DNA from: Hyphomicrobium zavarzinii ATCC 27496
GTDB taxonomy: Bacteria; Pseudomonadota; Alphaproteobacteria; Rhizobiales; Hyphomicrobiaceae
Direction of reading: 5' to 3'
Assembly: GCF_000383415.1 (NCBI RefSeq)
Contig: NZ_KB911256.1
Span: forward strand, 62,001-126,000
DNA: 64,000 bases
Part shown: piece after piece, positions 20,747 through 33,074 of the stretch
How positions within the stretch are numbered: the first letter of the stretch is position 1
How the letters are laid out: the number at the start of each line of letters is the position of its first letter
Made by a program: the position numbers and the translations under genes
The notes under the pieces: generated by a model
What the model was told of the DNA's origin: nothing
Seen by the model: the letters and a program-made list of their open reading frames with translations, nothing else
Database searches by the model: none

Positions 20747-21736
20747 TTACGCGGGCGCCGCGACGTGACCGGCTTCCACCAGTCCCCTCAGCATCACGGC
20801 CGCGCCGCACTGCTTGGAAACGGCGTTGGAATCCCACACGTTGTCGGCAACGAACTTGCCCTTCGTGTAGTGGTTCGAGAAGCTCCACAGATACGGTGTG
20901 TTGATCTTGTAGAGCAGGCGGCTGCGCCAGCCGTTGTAGGCTTCCCAGCGATAGAGCATGTGCGCCAGCGTCCAGTCGGGCTTCTCGTCGAGCTTGTCGT
21001 AGCGGAGCGCATCCACCGCGCTCGACACCCAGTCTGATGGCGGCAGCCATTGCGCGGGCCGGCCCTTCGGCACCTGCACGGTTTTCTTCTTGAGCGAGTC
21101 GCCGTTGTGGAGATGCGACTGCATGTCGAAGCCGCATTCCATGCCGTGGATGATCGCCACGAAATACCACGGCACGCAGGTTTCCTCGAACACCTGGTCG
21201 TAGGCCTTGCGCCGCGTGGGATCGGTGATCTTCGAGACGTACCACATCACCTCCGAGCGCTTCTCGGAGCGGATCTCGCACGTGGCGAACAGGCGCCGGT
21301 AGTCCTCGGCAATGCTGTCGAAGGCGGGCGCAGTGATCGCCTGCGCCTGCGGGCCCTCGGGGATGTCGCGCGGCATCCGCTCCGCGTTGCGCGCCGTGCG
21401 AAGAAGCTCGGACGCGCGATCGAGCAGGCTGTCCACGTCGGCTGACGTTACGCCCCGCGCGTCGGGAGCCGACGCGCTGACGCTGTCCATGAAGTCCACG
21501 ATGGCCGGCTGGATCTCTGTAAAGTCCTCGCTGGAGGACGAAGGCGCAAGGCCCATGCGAGGCACGGAAAGCCCAAGCCGCTGGGCTTCTTCGGAGAGGC
21601 CCGCGAGCGACGACCACGTGCCGCCATAGCGCTGGGCCCGGGCGGAAAGGCTGCCGATGCCGCCCGCGAGGGGAAGCGCCATTGCGGCTGCAAGGCCCTT
21701 TCCAAGCTGCCGGCGGTCGATTTGGACCCGTTTCAT
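20747..21736 (-). CDS. Exported lysozyme-like peptidoglycan hydrolase
   Basis: A 329-residue protein with a Tat-type signal (RRQLGKGLAAAM then a hydrophobic stretch, cleavage near SARAQ). The core, at about 180-300, contains an E-x-G-F-D then SHLHNGDSL segment, TVQVPKGRP, and a WEAYNGWRSR region. These match a lysozyme-like domain found in several bacterial peptidoglycan-active proteins, with the Glu of HGMECG as the likely catalytic residue. The start ATG 21736 is inside a longer frame. It lies 70 bp after the dual-protease gene on the same strand, so co-transcription is likely. The domain call is moderate; the substrate is inferred. Confidence 0.7.
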   Translation of the reverse strand: MKRVQIDRRQLGKGLAAAMALPLAGGIGSLSARAQRYGGTWSSLAGLSEEAQRLGLSVPRMGLAPSSSSEDFTEIQPAIVDFMDSVSASAPDARGVTSADVDSLLDRASELLRTARNAERMPRDIPEGPQAQAITAPAFDSIAEDYRRLFATCEIRSEKRSEVMWYVSKITDPTRRKAYDQVFEETCVPWYFVAIIHGMECGFDMQSHLHNGDSLKKKTVQVPKGRPAQWLPPSDWVSSAVDALRYDKLDEKPDWTLAHMLYRWEAYNGWRSRLLYKINTPYLWSFSNHYTKGKFVADNVWDSNAVSKQCGAAVMLRGLVEAGHVAAPA

Positions 21737-21806: not shown

Positions 21807-24800
21807 TCAACTCGACGGCACTTCGAGACCGACGGCCTTTTGCGAGGCCACCACCTGATCGCAATCGGAAGGGATGAGCCCGCCGAGCTCCGCGCCAGCG
21901 AGCTCGAAGCAGCCTTCGACGAAGGCATTCGCCGCGTGCGCCAGCGTCGAGCTTTGATTGAGGCCTACCGTCATCGCGCGATAGGTAATGCGCGCGAGCT
22001 TGTAACGCCCGATACCCTGCACCGTCACGCCGCGATGCGTGCCGCCCTCGGAGATCAGATAAGCGAACTTGTTCAGGATGCCGCTGTTGAAGTGCACACA
22101 GCCGTTGTCCTGATAAGCGGTCGATCCGCACTGGGGATCGTCGGGCGTCAGCACGTCGGAGTAGTGGTCGGGCTGTCCGCGATTGGCGAGCGAGAAGCGC
22201 GCCGCGCGGTCGAACATCGACTTGTTGTTGGCGTCCTTGAGGTTGGGATCGGCGAGGCTGCGCAGCGGCGACGTGATCGAGAAGCCGGGAGAGGATTCGC
22301 CAATCAGCCAGTTGCCGCCGTCGCCCCTCGCGTCGAACTCGATCAGCGCGCCGAAGATGTCGGCGAGCGACTCGTTCACCGCGCCCGGCTCGTTGAGATA
22401 GAGCAGGTTCTTCTCATGCGCGATGATGCCATGCGTCATCTCGTGAGCCACGATGTCGAGCGCGCCCGCATAGCCCGGGCCATACACCATGACGTTCGCC
22501 TTGGGGCAGTCGTAGGATTTGCTCGTGCACCAGTAGGCATTCTGCGTGCGCCCATGGCGGACGTAGGCTTCGAGCGGCGAGCCGCCTTGTCCAGCGTTGT
22601 CGTCGAAACCGTCGCGGCCGAACGTCAGGAAGAAGTAGTCGCGTACGATGCCTGCATTGCGGAACGCGACCAGCGCTTCCGGCGCGAGCTTCTCGATGCG
22701 CTTGCGCGTCTCCTCGTCGATGCCGAGCGAGCCCGGGAAGGTCGTGGCCTGGGCCAGATCGTACACCCGCCGCAGCATCCCCGAAGGCTGATCGCGATAA
22801 TAGTAGAAGGCCTCGCCCGTGTTCGCGTCCACGAAGATGCGGAAGGAATCGATGGTGACCAGCCACGCGAGCCGTGTCGGCCCCGACTTCGCTTTGCCGA
22901 TGAGAGCCGGATCGAACACGGTGAGATCAGGCTTCTTGATTTCGGCCTTGCTCGGGTCCGGCGCCAGCGGGAAGGCCCGTGAGGCGTCCGGCGCGCTGCG
23001 CAGCACATCCGCGAGCTTGGCCCGCGCGGCGGCGATGGCCTCGCCTTCGGCGATCTTGGGCTTGGTGTCATCGAGCGCGACGTTGGAGATCGTGCCGCTG
23101 AACTTCGTCACGCCGAGCGAACGGTCGACGTTGAGCTTCGCGGTGGAGCCGAACACGGGAATACCGTCCACTCGCTGCTCCACCTGCGCGACGTAGCGGT
23201 CCGGAAAATCCGGATCCTTGCGCCGTCCGATGTACTCCGGCTTCGCGCTCTTGTTCTTCGAGGGATAGAGCGAGCTGAGGCCGCCGGTGCCGAAATAGGC
23301 TTCCACCGCCCGCTTCGTTTCCTCCTCGGTCTGCTCGCGGCCGCCCTCGTTGGCCCCGAGCGACGGCGCACCCGAGCCCGGCTGCGGCGAGAGCCCCATC
23401 ACGGTCGTCGGCAGTCCTGTCGCGGGATTGATGGTGACGCGCAGGTTGGGATGCGTCTTGCGCAATTCCTCTACCGCGCGCTCTACTTCGGCCTTCACGG
23501 CCGCTGGATCGCTCGCTGCTGCCGGTTGGGTCCCGCTCGGCGCGGCCGTGACCAGAGGCGTGGCCTGCTCGCCGTTCTGCGAGCCGGCGCCAGTCGCGTT
23601 GCTTGCGACCGTGGTCGTGCTCACGAGCCGCCGGCATTTCGTGATCGGCTCGGGCGACGCCTCGGCAACCGCGTAGATCTCGGGCGGAGTGGAAAGCCCG
23701 GCGCTGGCGACTGCAGTTCCAAACGGCGTCGCCGGATCCGACCAGAGGAACTCCATGGCAGCGAGATCCGTGCGGTCGCTGCCGCCGAGCTTGCGCGCAT
23801 CCTTCGGAGAAAGTGCGCCGAAGCCGCTGCCGTTGAGGTCGATGCGCGGCCAGAAGCACTCGTTGTCGTCGATCACGCCGTCGCCGTTGAGGTCCTCGGT
23901 GAAGGCGGCATTCTGAGTGGCCGCACCGGAGAGGGTCGCGAGCTGGCGCGAGAACACGGCAAGATCGCTCGGACCCACCGCGCCGTCTCCGTCGAGATCG
24001 GCGAGCAGGCGCACCTCCTCGGGAACGAGCCGCGTCGCGGCTTCCAGCGCGTCGATGGCGGGAGCGTGGGTCTCGCCCTGCTTGGCGGGCGTTGCGCTCG
24101 CCTTCAGGATCTCCGCGATTTCGGCGGGCGTCTTGTCGGGTGCGAGCTCGAACAGGATGGCGGCCAGCGCGGCGACGTGCGGCGCGGCCTGTGAGGTGCC
24201 GCTGCAAACGCCGAGCGGCAGCTTGTCGGGCGAGAGCGTGCTCATGATGTCCACGCCCGGCGCTGCGAGATGACCGCCGATGTTCGAGAACTCGGCGCGC
24301 GCGCCGTTACGGTCCACGGCCTCCACCACGAGGATGTTGGGCGGACTGTCGCCGGTGGCGGACTCCTGCGTTCCCGCCCACGCGAACGGCGAGGCCCACT
24401 TGGCGTCGATCGGCACGGCGCGGTCGTCGGAATCGTTGCCCGCCGCGACGACGAACAGCACATGATCCTTCACGCGGCTCGCCATCAGGCGGATCAGGTT
24501 GGCCTGGTGCATCACGTGCAGCGCGAGACCGGGAACCTCCTCCGGATCTTCGTCGCCGAGCAGGTTGCTGGCCACAAAATTGTAGCCGAGGCTGATGTTC
24601 ACCACCCGAAGATTGTCGGGCTGCATTAGGTTTGCGTAGACGTAGTCGAGCGTCTTGGCGAGCACGTCGTCGAACAGCAGCGCGTGCACCTGCCAGCCTT
24701 CGTCCACGCCCACGTGGCCCGAGTCGCCGACGATCTTGTCGTCCACCGCGATCGCATCCATGCGCGCGTCGGGAATGATGCCGTCGATGCCCGGCTGGTC

Positions 24801-25889
24801 GTCGCGCCGCGCGCCGATGATGCCGGCCACATGCATGCCGTGATGCGTGCCGCACCCCGCCGTGTGGTAGACCAGCGGCTTCACGTTCTCCATCGAAGCG
24901 AACGGCACCAGCGGATTGGTCGCAAAGCCGCCGTCGATGATGCCGATCTTCGGGCGCTTCGCATCCGGGTTGGCCTTGCGATGCTGCGCGAGCACGCTCC
25001 ACACCGGCGGCAGACGGATGGCCTTGAGGCCCCAGTTGCCGTCCTGGCCGTCGCCGGCATTCCAGCGCCAGCTATAGATCTGGTCGCCCACCGTGATGGT
25101 GGCGCCCGCGCCCTTCGGCAGATGCTTGGCTTCCATCGTGGAGTTGACGAAGGCGCCCTCGACGATCCGCTCGTTTCTGAGATCGCGGATGAGCGGAGGC
25201 TCGAGGATGTTCTGGAGCTGCGCCTTGCGATCCTGGGGCGCGGCACCCGGGGCCGCGCCCACGGGGGCAGGCGCCTTGCCGTCCACCTCGACCGTGATCA
25301 CGCCGAGCGGCGCGATCATCTTGGTGATACGCAGATTGTATTTCTTGAGCAGCGCCTCGATGTCCGCGTCGGTCGCGGTAGGTGCGAGCTGAATGACGTA
25401 GCTGTTGGGCTTGGCCACGGGCACCTTGCGCGCGGCGACCTCGACGGGTTCGCCCGCGGGCGTGCGGCCGCGGCGGCCGAACAGCGTGCGGAACAGGCTG
25501 GGCCGCGAGGTGCTGGCCTCGGAGGCTTCGCTGAAGGCGCCTTTCGGCTGGTTCTCCGCAGCCGGAGCCGCTTCCGTGCCGAGCTTGTCGGAAAGGAACG
25601 CAAAGACGGACTCGCTCCACGTCACGCTCGAACGCTTGGCATTCGGGTCGTTGGACTTCTTCGAGGCCTTCTCATCCGGCTCGATGTAGATGAAGTCGTC
25701 CTTGCCGGAGCTGCTTCCCGGCTGGCCGGGCTTGGGCGCAGGCTTCGTTTTCGGCGCGAACTTTTCCTCCAGCGAGCGCTGCAGCCTGTCGTATTGCGAC
25801 GGCGGCAATTGCGCTTCGGCTGTCGAGAACATCGGCACGGTGAGCGCCATGAGCACCGCCATGGCAATTGCTGGCGTATGTCTCGGCAT
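21807..25889 (-). CDS. Secreted fusion of a subtilisin (S8) and a thermolysin-like (M4) protease
   Basis: A 1360-residue exported protein. Order: signal peptide (1-27); Pro/Ser-rich linker; a propeptide-like region (about 160-205); S8 domain (about 310-600) with catalytic Asp319 (IIDGG), His350 (HHGMHVAG), oxyanion Asn485 (AAGNDS) and Ser566 (GTSQAAPHV); Ca-binding EF-hand/dockerin-like loops at 631-642 and 666-677; an FTP/PepSY-type propeptide (about 860-1030); then M4 with HEMTH (His1149, Glu1150, His1153), third zinc ligand Glu1173 (NES) and His1266 (CVHFNSG). All catalytic residues of both domains look intact. Two full, mechanistically different proteases in one chain is unusual. It is flanked by lysozyme-like and M23 genes on the same strand. 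Confidence 0.93.
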   Translation of the reverse strand: MPRHTPAIAMAVLMALTVPMFSTAEAQLPPSQYDRLQRSLEEKFAPKTKPAPKPGQPGSSSGKDDFIYIEPDEKASKKSNDPNAKRSSVTWSESVFAFLSDKLGTEAAPAAENQPKGAFSEASEASTSRPSLFRTLFGRRGRTPAGEPVEVAARKVPVAKPNSYVIQLAPTATDADIEALLKKYNLRITKMIAPLGVITVEVDGKAPAPVGAAPGAAPQDRKAQLQNILEPPLIRDLRNERIVEGAFVNSTMEAKHLPKGAGATITVGDQIYSWRWNAGDGQDGNWGLKAIRLPPVWSVLAQHRKANPDAKRPKIGIIDGGFATNPLVPFASMENVKPLVYHTAGCGTHHGMHVAGIIGARRDDQPGIDGIIPDARMDAIAVDDKIVGDSGHVGVDEGWQVHALLFDDVLAKTLDYVYANLMQPDNLRVVNISLGYNFVASNLLGDEDPEEVPGLALHVMHQANLIRLMASRVKDHVLFVVAAGNDSDDRAVPIDAKWASPFAWAGTQESATGDSPPNILVVEAVDRNGARAEFSNIGGHLAAPGVDIMSTLSPDKLPLGVCSGTSQAAPHVAALAAILFELAPDKTPAEIAEILKASATPAKQGETHAPAIDALEAATRLVPEEVRLLADLDGDGAVGPSDLAVFSRQLATLSGAATQNAAFTEDLNGDGVIDDNECFWPRIDLNGSGFGALSPKDARKLGGSDRTDLAAMEFLWSDPATPFGTAVASAGLSTPPEIYAVAEASPEPITKCRRLVSTTTVASNATGAGSQNGEQATPLVTAAPSGTQPAAASDPAAVKAEVERAVEELRKTHPNLRVTINPATGLPTTVMGLSPQPGSGAPSLGANEGGREQTEEETKRAVEAYFGTGGLSSLYPSKNKSAKPEYIGRRKDPDFPDRYVAQVEQRVDGIPVFGSTAKLNVDRSLGVTKFSGTISNVALDDTKPKIAEGEAIAAARAKLADVLRSAPDASRAFPLAPDPSKAEIKKPDLTVFDPALIGKAKSGPTRLAWLVTIDSFRIFVDANTGEAFYYYRDQPSGMLRRVYDLAQATTFPGSLGIDEETRKRIEKLAPEALVAFRNAGIVRDYFFLTFGRDGFDDNAGQGGSPLEAYVRHGRTQNAYWCTSKSYDCPKANVMVYGPGYAGALDIVAHEMTHGIIAHEKNLLYLNEPGAVNESLADIFGALIEFDARGDGGNWLIGESSPGFSITSPLRSLADPNLKDANNKSMFDRAARFSLANRGQPDHYSDVLTPDDPQCGSTAYQDNGCVHFNSGILNKFAYLISEGGTHRGVTVQGIGRYKLARITYRAMTVGLNQSSTLAHAANAFVEGCFELAGAELGGLIPSDCDQVVASQKAVGLEVPSS

Positions 25890-25950: not shown

Positions 25951-27492
25951 TCAACTTCCCCACCAATTGTTCCACTTACCCTTGATCCAGTCCCACCACC
26001 CTTGCTCCTGAGGCGCGGGCGCAGGGGCCGGCTGAGGCTCGGGTTGCGGCGCGGGCTGAGGCGTTGGCGCCGGTGCGGGAGCCGGTTCCGGCTGCGGAGC
26101 GGGTGTCGGCGCAGGTGTCGGTGTCGGCTCCGGTTGAGGCGGAACGGGCGCCGGCTCGGGTTGAGGCGCGGGCTCCGGCTGCGGCGCGGGCTCGGGCGCA
26201 GGCGTGGGCTCAGGCTGAGGCGTGGGTTCGGGTGCCGGTGCGGGCACTGGCGCAGGCTCCGGCGCGGGCGTGGGAGCAGGCGTCGGCGTAGGTTGCGGCG
26301 TCGGCTGAGGTGTCGGCGTGGGTGTCGGTGCCGGAGGTGCCGTCGCGCCGATCTCCACCACGGGATCGACGATCAGATTGCCGTCCGCATCGATGCCCGC
26401 ATCGAGGCCCTTGGCGCGGCGCAACGCGGCGATCATCGAGGTGAATACGGGGACGTACACCTGCAAGGTCTTGTCGCCGACCTTGATGCGCTGGCGCACG
26501 TTCAAGTGCAGATGCAGGCTCGTGGCGGGCTTGCCGCCCATGTACTTCGAGACCTTGCCGAGCACTTGGCCCTGCTTCACCTTCGCGCCCGTCTTCACGG
26601 TGATCGAGCGCGGGTGCATGTGAAGATAGTAGTAGTCGGTGCCGTCGTTGGTCTTGAGCTGCACGGTGGTGTTGGAGGTCACGTTGACGATCGTGCCATC
26701 CGCGACCGCGACCACTTCCCACGTGTTGTCCTTGTAGCTCGGCGGACGGATGTCCTGGCCCTGATGGCCTGCGCCGCCGGGGCAAAGAGGCATGTCCCAG
26801 CCGCGAACCTCGCAGTAGTTGTCCCGCTGCTTCATCGGGTCGTAGTTGCGCGGATCGCTGTCGCTGCCGCCGGCCGCGCCCTTGCCGTTCCAGCCGCCGC
26901 CGCCATAGCCCCAGATCTGAGAGTTCATGTGCGGGAAAAGGCCGGGGCCGAGTTTCAGCGGGAAGACAATGTCGGGCGCATAGACGCGACGGTCCGCGCG
27001 TCCGCGGCCTTTGTCTTTCTCCAAGAGGTCTCCGGGCGGATAGTAGGCGAAGCCTGCTTGAGCCGGAGGCGTGGCCGTGCCCCCACCGGTACCCGGTTGA
27101 CCTGTGCCAGGCTGCCCCGTTCCGCTTCCCGCGCCCGTATCAGTCCCCGGTGTGGTCGTCCCGCCGCCGGTGACGGGTGGCGTCGAGCCATCAGCCGGTG
27201 GCAGCAAGCTGCAACGCGCGAGCTGCACGAGATCGTTGCCTTGCACACCGGCGTCGCCAACACACGGCGTAAAACCGCGCTGAGGAGCCGTGCGCACGCC
27301 ATTGAAGGCCGGTGCCATGCTCGGCGCCGCGAAGCTTTGCACCAGCGCGTATGTTGCGATGTCGCGCCCTAGAAGAGGCGAAGGCCCAGCCGCGAACGCG
27401 CGATCCTGAGTTGGCAGATGGGCGAACCCTGCGAAGCCGGCACCCGCGAGTGCGGGAATGACGCACAACGCAACTCCACGAGCAATCCTCAC
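25951..27492 (-). CDS. Secreted M23 endopeptidase with Pro-rich stalk and Trp-rich tail
   Basis: A 513-residue exported protein starting at GTG 27492 after GGGGGA. Order: signal peptide (about 1-35); Gly/Thr/Pro linker (about 100-145); M23 (LytM/lysostaphin) domain (about 170-380) with His243 and Asp247 (HQGQD), His291 and the HLH pair His327/His329; a Pro/Ala/Glu/Gln-rich stalk of about 110 residues (387-495); and a final [16 protein letters not shown] segment with six Trp. M23 enzymes cut peptidoglycan cross-bridges or act as scaffolds; the His-Asp-His set suggests activity. The Trp-rich tail may bind membranes or carbohydrate. It precedes the dual-protease gene by 61 bp on the same strand. 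Confidence 0.9.
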
Positions 27493-27687: not shown

Positions 27688-29832
27688 CTAAGGAGCGCTC
27701 TCCGCCGGAAGCAGAGATTGCAGCATCGCGCGGGCTTCCGGCGAAAGGCGATCTTCCGGCAGATCTGCAGCAAGAACACGGCGGATTGCGGCTTGCACGT
27801 TTGCGGGTGCCGGTTCCGGTGCGACCGCCAGCGCCTGCGGGCCGCCAAGGCCGGGCGCCGCGGAGAAGAGCCCGCCCCAGTCGATGCCGATCGACGGTTT
27901 CGCCCAATCGCCCGAGATGCGCACCGGGATCGGGAACGCCGTCGGCGGAGGGATGGCCTTCACGCGGATTTCCTGGTTGAGCCGCTTGCTCGGTACGTTG
28001 ACAGTTCCCGCCGAGTTGATCTCCACCTCAGAGCCGCCCATCGAGAGGCCCGGCTGGCTCCGGAGAATGCCTTTCTTGATGTCGTACTGCGCTTCGAGGC
28101 GCTCGAAGCCTGTCTTGAGGCCGAGGTCGAACTTCCAGCTTTTCCACCATTCGAAGATCATCCGGCGCACGTCGAAGCCGCGCAGCGCGCCTTGTCCCAT
28201 GCGGAAATGCGCTTTCCCTTCGAGCGTGGAGGTGAGCTGGCTCTGGTTCTGCCCAGCGGCCGTCGCCGAGATCTCGACGTTGGATGTGCCGGAAAGAAGC
28301 GGCTTTCCGGTCAATTCGGTGATGATGGGCTCCGCCGCGACATCCGACATGGTGAGCACCACTGCGGCCTTGGGCGGCGCGGCGCGGCTGTCGACGTTGA
28401 GTGTGCCCGTTGCCTTGCCGGCGCCGACGGCCAGCTCTTCGAGCTGGGCATCCAGCACCCCGTCGGTGATCGCGGCTTTGACGCGTCCCTGCTTGAGATC
28501 GAGCGCGCCATAGGTGATCGCGGCGGCGTTGACGAGCACGTCGAGATCGAAAGCCCGAAGTGCCTTGAGATTGAACGGCTGCTCGCTCCATCCGGGCGCC
28601 GAGGAGGCCGTGGCGGACGCAGCTTCGGCCTGCGCGGCCGCTTGCGGGCCGCGCTCCAGCGTCGAGAGATCGTTGAGAAGCTGCTCCCAGCCCGCGGTCA
28701 CCTGCGGCTCGAACTCTGTAACGGGTGACGCTTCAGGTGCGAGCGATGCGCGTCCTCCCTTGCCCGCGATCCGGCCGAGATCGACATGCTCGCTCGCAAT
28801 CGTGCCAGAAAGCTTCGGCCGCACGCCGCCAAGATCGAGCTTGCCGTCGAAGCGGCTGCTCGTCGTGTTGATCATCACGTCGGTTTCGGTGAACGTCACG
28901 TCGCGCGTGGTGGCCAGCACCTTGCCTTCGAGCGAGGTCTTGAGCGGCTCGCCGGTCGCGGTCGTGTCCGCGCCGAACCAGCGCGCGAGATCGAAGAGAG
29001 AGGGCGTGGATGCGGTCACGTCGCCCTTGAACTCGGCGGCGGCCGAGAAAAGCGCGTCACCTTCGAGTGCCGCCCGCAACGGACGCCCGTCGATGCTCGC
29101 CTTTAGGGTCGACGATCCGCCCGCGACCATGGCATCGAAATCGCCGAGCACGATGTCGAACGCGACAGCTTCGCCACCTGCCACCAGCGTTCCCTTTGAG
29201 GTCGCGCCGCCTCCGACGGTGTCCAGTGTCTGCGCGGAGTTTATGGCGCTCACCGCGCGAATGGCCCCCGTCTTCCCGCTCCGGAAGCTAAGGGCGCCGT
29301 CCCCGATCGTGATGATCGGCGGCGGAGAGAAAGCGGCCACGGGCGCCGAGGTTGCCGGTTGTGCCGCCACGCTCGCAGCAGGCGTGCCGAACACCCAGTT
29401 GCGGGTGCCGTTCGCATCTTCCTCGAGCGTGATGTTCGGCTTGATCAGTTGCAGGCTTTCCATCCGCACGCGGCCCTTGAGCAGCGGCAACAGATCGACC
29501 GTGGTCTTCACGGTGTCGCCCAGAAAGAGATTGCGCTCCGGCATTCCCTCAGGATTGGAGACGGCCACCTGGTCGAATTCCACGTCGAGCTTCGGCCGCT
29601 CGAGCTTGGGCGGGATGTGAATGCGCATGGCCCCGATGGTCACCTTGCGGCCATACGCATCCCCGATGCTCTTGGCGAGTTGATCCTTGATGAGGCCTAG
29701 CGGCGGGAAGATGACGAGAAGCGCGATCGCAACGATGGCGCCGATCAGCAGCGTGCGGAACAGCCGCCACGCGGTTCGACCCGTCTTGCGCGGCGCCTCG
29801 GCCTCGGAGGGCGTTCCAGGATCTGCTGGCAT
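27688..29832 (-). CDS. AsmA-family protein
   Basis: A 714-residue protein with a cytosolic N-terminus, one membrane helix (about 25-46, LLIGAIVAIALLVIFPPLG) and a long periplasmic beta-rich region, ending with the SINSQ/GxQG-type C-terminal AsmA segment around FRMGQGALRGFDVRRMI. AsmA-like proteins are thought to move phospholipids across the periplasm or to influence outer-membrane assembly. Start ATG 29832 has GGAG upstream. It lies upstream of the M23 gene with about 195 bp between them. A role in envelope maintenance fits its neighbours, but this is inference. Confidence 0.88.
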   Translation of the reverse strand: MPADPGTPSEAEAPRKTGRTAWRLFRTLLIGAIVAIALLVIFPPLGLIKDQLAKSIGDAYGRKVTIGAMRIHIPPKLERPKLDVEFDQVAVSNPEGMPERNLFLGDTVKTTVDLLPLLKGRVRMESLQLIKPNITLEEDANGTRNWVFGTPAASVAAQPATSAPVAAFSPPPIITIGDGALSFRSGKTGAIRAVSAINSAQTLDTVGGGATSKGTLVAGGEAVAFDIVLGDFDAMVAGGSSTLKASIDGRPLRAALEGDALFSAAAEFKGDVTASTPSLFDLARWFGADTTATGEPLKTSLEGKVLATTRDVTFTETDVMINTTSSRFDGKLDLGGVRPKLSGTIASEHVDLGRIAGKGGRASLAPEASPVTEFEPQVTAGWEQLLNDLSTLERGPQAAAQAEAASATASSAPGWSEQPFNLKALRAFDLDVLVNAAAITYGALDLKQGRVKAAITDGVLDAQLEELAVGAGKATGTLNVDSRAAPPKAAVVLTMSDVAAEPIITELTGKPLLSGTSNVEISATAAGQNQSQLTSTLEGKAHFRMGQGALRGFDVRRMIFEWWKSWKFDLGLKTGFERLEAQYDIKKGILRSQPGLSMGGSEVEINSAGTVNVPSKRLNQEIRVKAIPPPTAFPIPVRISGDWAKPSIGIDWGGLFSAAPGLGGPQALAVAPEPAPANVQAAIRRVLAADLPEDRLSPEARAMLQSLLPAESAP

Positions 29833-30105
29833 GCGGGTCTCCACGCAACACACGGGACTGACATCATGCCGGATGCGCACCATGCCAGTATGCAAGCGGC
29901 ATACTATTTGGCGCGCACTCCTTCAACCCGTGCCGCGCCTGCCACGCGCTTGTGCTCAGAGGCGTTGCGCGGAGGAGACGCCGGGTCTTGACGGACTTGA
30001 TCGTGGACGGGCCGCCCGGGTAAGGTTCGCACCCAAATGGCCCGGCCCCGCTTGGCGGACCGCTGAGCGCTTAGGTATGTCTTGAGTAGACAAGGAAATG
30101 TCCGC

Positions 30106-32402: not shown

Positions 32403-33074
32403 TTAAAGGACCTTAACGTGCCGGCGTGAGGGGGGCGGCCGGCCGAGGCAGGTCCGGATGATCTCGAGCCCGCCGATGAGCGCCGTCCCCCAGTCGAACC
32501 GCATCGCCTTGGGATCGGCCCGCGACTTGAGCAACGCAGGCTGAATTTCCTGGGGAATATGAAAAAAGCCGACAGTCGCCGGTTGCTCACCTTGCTCCGC
32601 CAGAAGCAGCGAGTGGTAAAAAATGGCGTTGCAGAGATAGCCGCCCGCATCGTCCGAGAGTTCGGCAGGAACGCGCAACGCGGCGAGGCGGCGTTTGATT
32701 TCTTCGGCGGGAACGTGCGTCGCGTGGGTCGCAGGCCCGCCGCGGACGATGTGGGTGTCGCTCGGCAGCGCGCCCACGGCATCCTCTGCAGAGCGGCACA
32801 GATTGTGCGCCTGCGTCTCGATCACGAAGCAAGTAGCCTTGGACGATACGCCGAAATGCAACACCAGCTTCGGCCGCTCCCGCTCGTAGAGCGTCTTGAG
32901 CCGGCCGGGCGCTCGTTCCCATTCCGTGGGCAGGATCCTGGAGACCACCCGGTGCGCGCTGAAACGGCGTGCCGCGAGATGGGCGAGCTTGGGCACGAAC
33001 CGTTGGCTGGCGTTCTCGGCGACACCAGGAAATGGGCCGAAGCCCGTCAGAAGAATGGTATCTCGCTGACGCAT
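32403..33074 (-). CDS. pcp: Pyroglutamyl-peptidase I-like cysteine peptidase (C15)
   Basis: A 223-residue peptidase that removes N-terminal pyroglutamate from peptides. The C15 catalytic triad is present: Glu86 in VIETQAHN, Cys148 in GGYLCNAIFYHS, and His172 in VGFFHIPQ. The N-terminus LLTGFGPFPGVAENAS is also typical. No signal peptide. It lies 36 bp upstream of the beta-helix gene in the same orientation, so transcription may be shared. Divergent from the DUF900 gene. Confidence 0.9.
   Translation of the reverse strand: MRQRDTILLTGFGPFPGVAENASQRFVPKLAHLAARRFSAHRVVSRILPTEWERAPGRLKTLYERERPKLVLHFGVSSKATCFVIETQAHNLCRSAEDAVGALPSDTHIVRGGPATHATHVPAEEIKRRLAALRVPAELSDDAGGYLCNAIFYHSLLLAEQGEQPATVGFFHIPQEIQPALLKSRADPKAMRFDWGTALIGGLEIIRTCLGRPPPSRRHVKVL

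Follow-up and report, generated by a model that had tools for sequence, protein, structure and literature searches.

The window, a 64,000-nucleotide stretch of the Hyphomicrobium zavarzinii ATCC 27496 genome, carries a single frame of 1360 residues that runs from ATG to TGA with zero internal stops and encodes an S8 serine protease followed by an M4 metalloprotease (Table 1). The original prediction had placed this gene at 21807-25889, which is correct, and had left the strand, minus, unstated. Its claim that both proteases lie on one polypeptide was borne out by the single frame, by Pfam families above their cut-offs and by agreeing predicted folds. The catalytic residues sit at the numbers it had given (Asp319, His350 and Ser566; HEMTH, Glu1173 and His1266), and two further catalytic-type residues, the oxyanion Asn485 and Tyr1164, were located. 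A frameshift or join near the linker was looked for and was absent, as was the loss of one catalytic set; judged from these residues, both protease halves are apparently complete. The fused protein of these Hyphomicrobium-like bacteria is probably secreted. The GspD profile of type II secretion gave a match in the same genome that was below cut-off.

Table 1 Features of the S8-M4 gene and its neighbours (positions in the window)
Feature	Position	Strand	Remarks
S8-M4 fusion protein	21807..25889	(-)	1360 aa
Signal peptide, residues 1-27	25809..25889	(-)	assigned by eye from sequence
S8 propeptide-like region, residues 160-275	25065..25412	(-)	I9-like by eye; 3whi fold match
S8 subtilase catalytic domain, residues about 276-620	24030..25064	(-)	D319, H350, N485, S566
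Dockerin/EF-hand-like calcium loops, residues 626-700	23790..24014	(-)	Pfam dockerin match below cut-off
End of S8 half, up to Cys752	23634..23789	(-)	sequence comparison with split S8 proteins
Linker, residues 753-806	23472..23633	(-)	disorder predicted over most of it; lowest conservation
M4 prodomain (weak FTP), residues 807-1023	22821..23471	(-)	Pfam FTP below cut-off, model
M4 thermolysin-like catalytic domain, residues 1024-1360	21810..22820	(-)	HEMTH 1149-1153, E1173, H1266
M23 peptidase, zinc motifs, Pro-rich tail; conserved upstream gene	25951..27492	(-)	
AsmA family, conserved, further upstream	27688..29895	(-)	start codon unsure
Conserved downstream gene, possibly lysozyme-like	20747..21736	(-)	twin-arginine-like leader by eye

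Motifs, Pfam score and predicted fold together assign the N-terminal half to the S8 subtilases. Peptidase_S8 (PF00082) matched with an E value of 1.1e-27 (97.5 bits against a cut-off of 21.8), and a PDB sequence search aligned residues about 515-601 with subtilisins (1sbi, E 3e-12). The preceding pro region gave no match to the Pfam I9 propeptide; pro-subtilisin 3whi was among the fold matches of the model described below. The EF-hand/dockerin-like calcium loops of the original prediction held in part: dockerin type I matched at E 0.01 in 17 of 19 family members, the window's included, but the window protein scored 21-22.6 bits, just under the Pfam cut-off of 22.9, and the loops are therefore termed dockerin-like only.

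The C-terminal half is likewise assigned to the M4 thermolysin-like proteases by its HExxH, Glu, Tyr and His residues, Pfam matches and predicted fold. Peptidase_M4 (PF01447; E 1.6e-11, 45.3 bits) and Peptidase_M4_C (PF02868; E 4e-31, 108.6 bits) both exceeded their cut-offs, and residues 1024-1333 matched thermolysin in the PDB sequence search (E 2.6e-40). The FTP/PepSY propeptide proposed earlier fared less well. FTP scored 16.7-18 bits in the window protein against a cut-off of 21, and at E 0.01 it matched no more than 3 of 20 family members, counting the window's; PepSY gave no match.

A profile search and a structural prediction had been proposed as checks on the two-protease chain. All three profiles, Peptidase_S8, Peptidase_M4 and Peptidase_M4_C, scored above their Pfam cut-offs, and an AlphaFold2 model of residues 161-1360, built on an alignment of 46 rows taken from 62 listed, recovered a subtilisin-like and a thermolysin-like fold. 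Foldseek matched the predicted M4 half to the thermolysin-like 1esp (E 6e-21, TM by target 0.77) and the predicted S8 half to subtilisin 1s01 (E 8e-11, TM by target 0.69), subtilisins overall giving E values of about 1e-10 and TM by target mostly of 0.64-0.71. With a mean pLDDT of 74 and a pTM of 0.49, the model is usable for single domains and not for their mutual placement. Its pLDDT falls below 50 across residues 734-793, which take in the last part of the S8 half and the greater part of the linker.

Searches of 103 genomes of the family at a threshold of E 1e-20 gave matches in 20, belonging to 5 of 25 genera. Both halves were found together in every matching genome (20/20), S8 first each time. 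They are fused in 15 genomes of three genera (8 of the window's genus, the window included, 6 of a second and 1 of a third) and split in 5 genomes of two other genera, 4 of one and 1 of another. The four-genome split genus consists of three Filomicrobium and Alphaproteobacteria bacterium BRH_c36; NCBI taxonomy places Hyphomicrobium and Filomicrobium both within the Hyphomicrobiaceae. In the split genomes an S8 gene is followed on the same strand by an adjacent M4 gene with its own start, whose product carries, by eye, its own signal peptide. The named collection contained 17 family loci, 12 fused and 5 split. Asp319, His350, Asn485, Ser566, HEMTH, Tyr1164, Glu1173 and His1266 are each conserved in all 15 fused proteins (the window protein among them), and 5/5 split pairs have them too, distributed over the two genes. 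These orthologues refute the idea that two genes were merged by an assembly or sequencing error, which we regard as practically negligible: two separate genes do exist in sister genera, but the identical fusion occurs in 15 genomes, among them a single-contig genome (G006) and Hyphomicrobium sp. LHD-15, a record without a MAG label.

Outside the family the M4 proteases examined stand apart from S8. The class sample (385 genomes, two candidates scored in each) matched in the window's own genome only. Open frames at M4 matches outside the family measured 342-774 aa in the order sample (12 of 397 genomes) and 347-475 aa in the phylum sample (23 of 398), with at most three candidates per genome in both. 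An S8 profile found S8 within the M4 frame in none of 62 outside M4 loci; an S8 frame lay in the flanks of three, on the same strand in L075 and L080 and on the opposite strand in L102. Of 67 M4 frames from outside the family, 44 reach at least 700 aa; a Pfam scan of these 44 showed no S8 among the 25 families listed, beyond which lie 19 more with one member each. In none of the 69 matching plasmid records, 25 of them listed, did one place cover 80% of the query. Thus no independent S8-M4 fusion was seen elsewhere, in a survey that was not exhaustive.

Among the matches listed, the closest outside M4 relatives are free-standing proteins of Sinorhizobium plasmids, 41% identical, after which identity drops to about 30%. 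These standalone proteins have a leader, assigned by eye, and a C-terminal CxxCH motif, a cytochrome c-like CRGCH in both records (L159, 7872-10031; L160, 7791-10025). No close S8 relative lies beside the free-standing M4 relative; a distant S8 gene is found about 4 kb downstream, and in L159 the M4 gene is near tyrosinase, S8 and M12 genes. A free-standing S8 protein of Sinorhizobium sojae (L161, 5356-6966) is related to the subfamily in question (E 5e-49), and that plasmid record has one matching place only, among the matches listed.

An M4 tree was built from the fused, split and two Sinorhizobium proteins with eight other M4 rows (21 outside rows were used in an earlier tree). Fused proteins formed one clade (99/99) and split proteins another (100/97), and the two Sinorhizobium plasmid proteins joined both with full support; the branching order of the three groups was without resolution. 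The S8 alignment and trees comprised 19 rows with four of the five split proteins, the S8 of G072 having been missed by the motif filter, and agreed with the M4 tree, with weakly supported monophyly of the fused form (71/61). With no fusion among the split, Sinorhizobium and eight further M4 rows, a single fusion event suffices to account for the pattern. Judged from these sequences, the simplest history would be a single merger of two neighbouring genes that are still separate in relatives. An ancestral fusion would instead need later fission plus a new signal peptide.

The junction itself is consistent with such a merger. All five split S8 proteins stop one residue past the cysteine corresponding to Cys752, which is conserved in 15/15 fused proteins and marks the start of the linker, a long segment rich in Ala, Pro, Ser, Thr and Gly. 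From the S8 end to the M4 prodomain there are 52-65 residues in 14 of the 15 fused proteins and 114 in the remaining one; the same distance amounts to 65, 66, 66 and 76 codon equivalents in the four of five split pairs measured. The spacing looks as if the stop, spacer and signal peptide had been turned into linker. As the distances in the split pairs measured are not multiples of three bases, the fusion required a frame change too.

An internal start for the M4 half was considered: five in-frame ATG, GTG or TTG codons lie at residues 735-860, none followed by a signal-peptide-like segment by eye. A hydrophobic stretch is present in the linker of the six proteins of the second fused genus, and for these 287-1003 of 2000 shuffles scored equally high; with 1442 of 2000 shuffles for the window protein, a relic signal peptide is unsupported.

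Mean identity to the window protein, taken over 7 proteins of the same genus, was lowest in the linker (35%). It was 48% in the N-terminal low-complexity stretch, 70% in the S8 pro region, 81% in the S8 catalytic domain, 80% in the calcium loops, 82% in the M4 prodomain and 87% in the M4 catalytic domain. NG86 dN/dS ranged over 0.12-0.21 for the S8 and 0.07-0.17 for the M4 catalytic domain (4 comparisons each); both enzymes are being retained.

The neighbouring genes are also conserved. A search at E 1e-15 detected M23 in 18 of the 20 protease genomes, adjoining the proteases in 17 and on another contig in one; in the two genomes where it had no match, contigs start near or inside the S8 gene. 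Two genomes without the proteases have it as well. Its HxxxD motif is conserved in 12/12 loci aligned there and HxH in 13/13. The downstream gene occurs in 28 of the 103 family genomes, comprising all 20 with the proteases and 8 without, and is adjacent in 19 of the 20, on the same strand in 7 and convergent in 12. Within the window's genus it runs in the same direction as the proteases in 7 of 8 genomes, and the remaining 12 of the 19 adjacent cases are all convergent; this orientation switch is a local inversion next to a conserved locus. Some 6.5 kb upstream of the protease gene, and sharing its strand, is a pyroglutamyl peptidase (C15) gene (32403-33074), which is also present in five same-genus loci.

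The downstream protein belongs to no Pfam, NCBIfam or PHROG family. In an alignment of 16 rows its Glu200 does not vary, nor does an HLHNGD motif. All fold matches were weak (best E 0.95) and included goose-type lysozyme, autolysin E and lytic transglycosylases, plus unrelated proteins; a phage homologue labelled peptidoglycan-binding protein is 32% identical over 39% of the query. The lysozyme-like assignment is weak, so any part that the locus plays in breaking down the wall counts as a lead and not as an established finding.

On this simplest history, a merger of neighbouring genes, it is probable that the two enzymes act together, and they may mature together as well. We somewhat favour the reading that the protein is a two-enzyme precursor which, after export, is cut in the linker so as to release both proteases. 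The chain, catalytic sets, clade and split pairs are taken here from sequence, and the folds and disorder from prediction; from these we infer export and processing. The N-terminal signal peptide would take the chain across the inner membrane in a single export step, the S8 domain would fold with its own propeptide and then mature itself, and a cut in the linker by S8 or M4 would yield two proteases in equal amounts. S8 may additionally clip the M4 prodomain, hastening M4 activation. The fusion would thereby have put a tether in the place of a second signal peptide, so that enzymes which would already have worked together are exported together and supplied 1:1, at a locus that has genes for an M23 peptidase and, possibly, a murein hydrolase. 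Against this reading, M4 enzymes are able to self-process, so that S8 would not be required to act on M4, and the chain might remain uncut. The weak S8-tree support for fused monophyly, the unsettled branching order in the M4 tree, the non-significant signal-peptide relic and the frame change that the fusion required also count against it. An uncut, two-headed enzyme, with tethered sites of complementary specificity acting on the same substrate and with calcium loops and linker setting the spacing, is unlikely. The linker keeps its length in 14/15 proteins despite sequence divergence, and the calcium loops recur in 17/19 members, but a long linker of this composition between two proteases would be an obvious cleavage target, and five genomes make the pair as two proteins.

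The original prediction went further, proposing that S8 matures M4. While its two-protease chain stands, the maturation is plausible on circumstantial support, namely the adjacent gene pair in sister genera, the 20/20 co-occurrence and the predicted disordered linker; activation could run from S8 to M4, from M4 to S8, or in neither direction. A strict one-way cascade, in which S8 matures itself and must cut the inner prodomain before M4 becomes active, is rather doubtful. The domain order (S8, prodomain, M4), the constant co-occurrence of the halves in matching family genomes and the reach permitted by a predicted flexible linker would suit it, and bacterial cascades join protease families in trans, according to PMC3454333. 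Autocatalytic activation, however, is described for the M4 enzymes aureolysin and vibriolysin in PMC3454333 and PMC3831164, the Sinorhizobium M4 relative is free-standing, and the staphylococcal cascade, as outlined in PMC3454333, has its M4 enzyme first, not second. No better than tentative is the proposal that S8-M4 processes the flanking M23 and lysozyme-like proteins, or clears envelope protein for them, in a murein-lysis module serving the cell's own growth or the killing of other bacteria. M23 beside the proteases in 17 genomes, with its motifs conserved, and a downstream gene in 20/20 point to it; the weak fold matches and single phage annotation behind the lysozyme-like call, the convergent orientation in 12/19 adjacent cases and the genomes that have the downstream gene (8) or M23 (2) without the proteases point away from it. 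Decidedly improbable is a single-chain cascade in which S8 would be a built-in timer that releases and arms M4 after export and the pair would arm M23 and the lysozyme-like protein, as a self-contained wall-lysis programme of the budding and hyphal bacteria of the Hyphomicrobium kind.

The S8 half resembles subtilisin in its Asp/His/Ser triad, oxyanion Asn, predicted fold and N-terminal pro region, and differs in its C-terminal calcium loops and attached M4 enzyme; the catalytic His and oxyanion Asn, 91 residues apart in subtilisin BPN', are separated here by 135. The M4 half shares HExxH, the downstream Glu, the catalytic His, predicted fold and N-terminal prodomain with thermolysin, aureolysin and vibriolysin, but a whole S8 protease precedes its prodomain in place of a signal peptide. 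Filomicrobium and its relatives encode the same proteins in the same order, but as two adjacent genes, S8 and M4, with two leaders; the flanking genes agree as well wherever the contig extends far enough to show them. The serine protease of the staphylococcal cascade (aureolysin, SspA, SspB) is of family S1. As presented in PMC3454333, that cascade also links an M4 and a serine protease in maturation, but on separate chains and with M4 acting first.

Fusion-directed searches of one open-access library found no S8-M4 fusion, S8 and M4 proteases being separate proteins in the passages retrieved; an earlier description elsewhere, in subscription papers or domain-architecture databases, is possible. 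To our knowledge, two mechanistically unrelated proteases in one chain seem to be rare. The parts of this protein are known and their combination is new, and it draws attention to a conserved locus that holds proteases and a probable wall-cutting enzyme. Sister genera that carry the same pair as two genes are nature's matched control, and thus offer a natural experiment on why enzymes fuse, be it for co-export, stoichiometry or activation.
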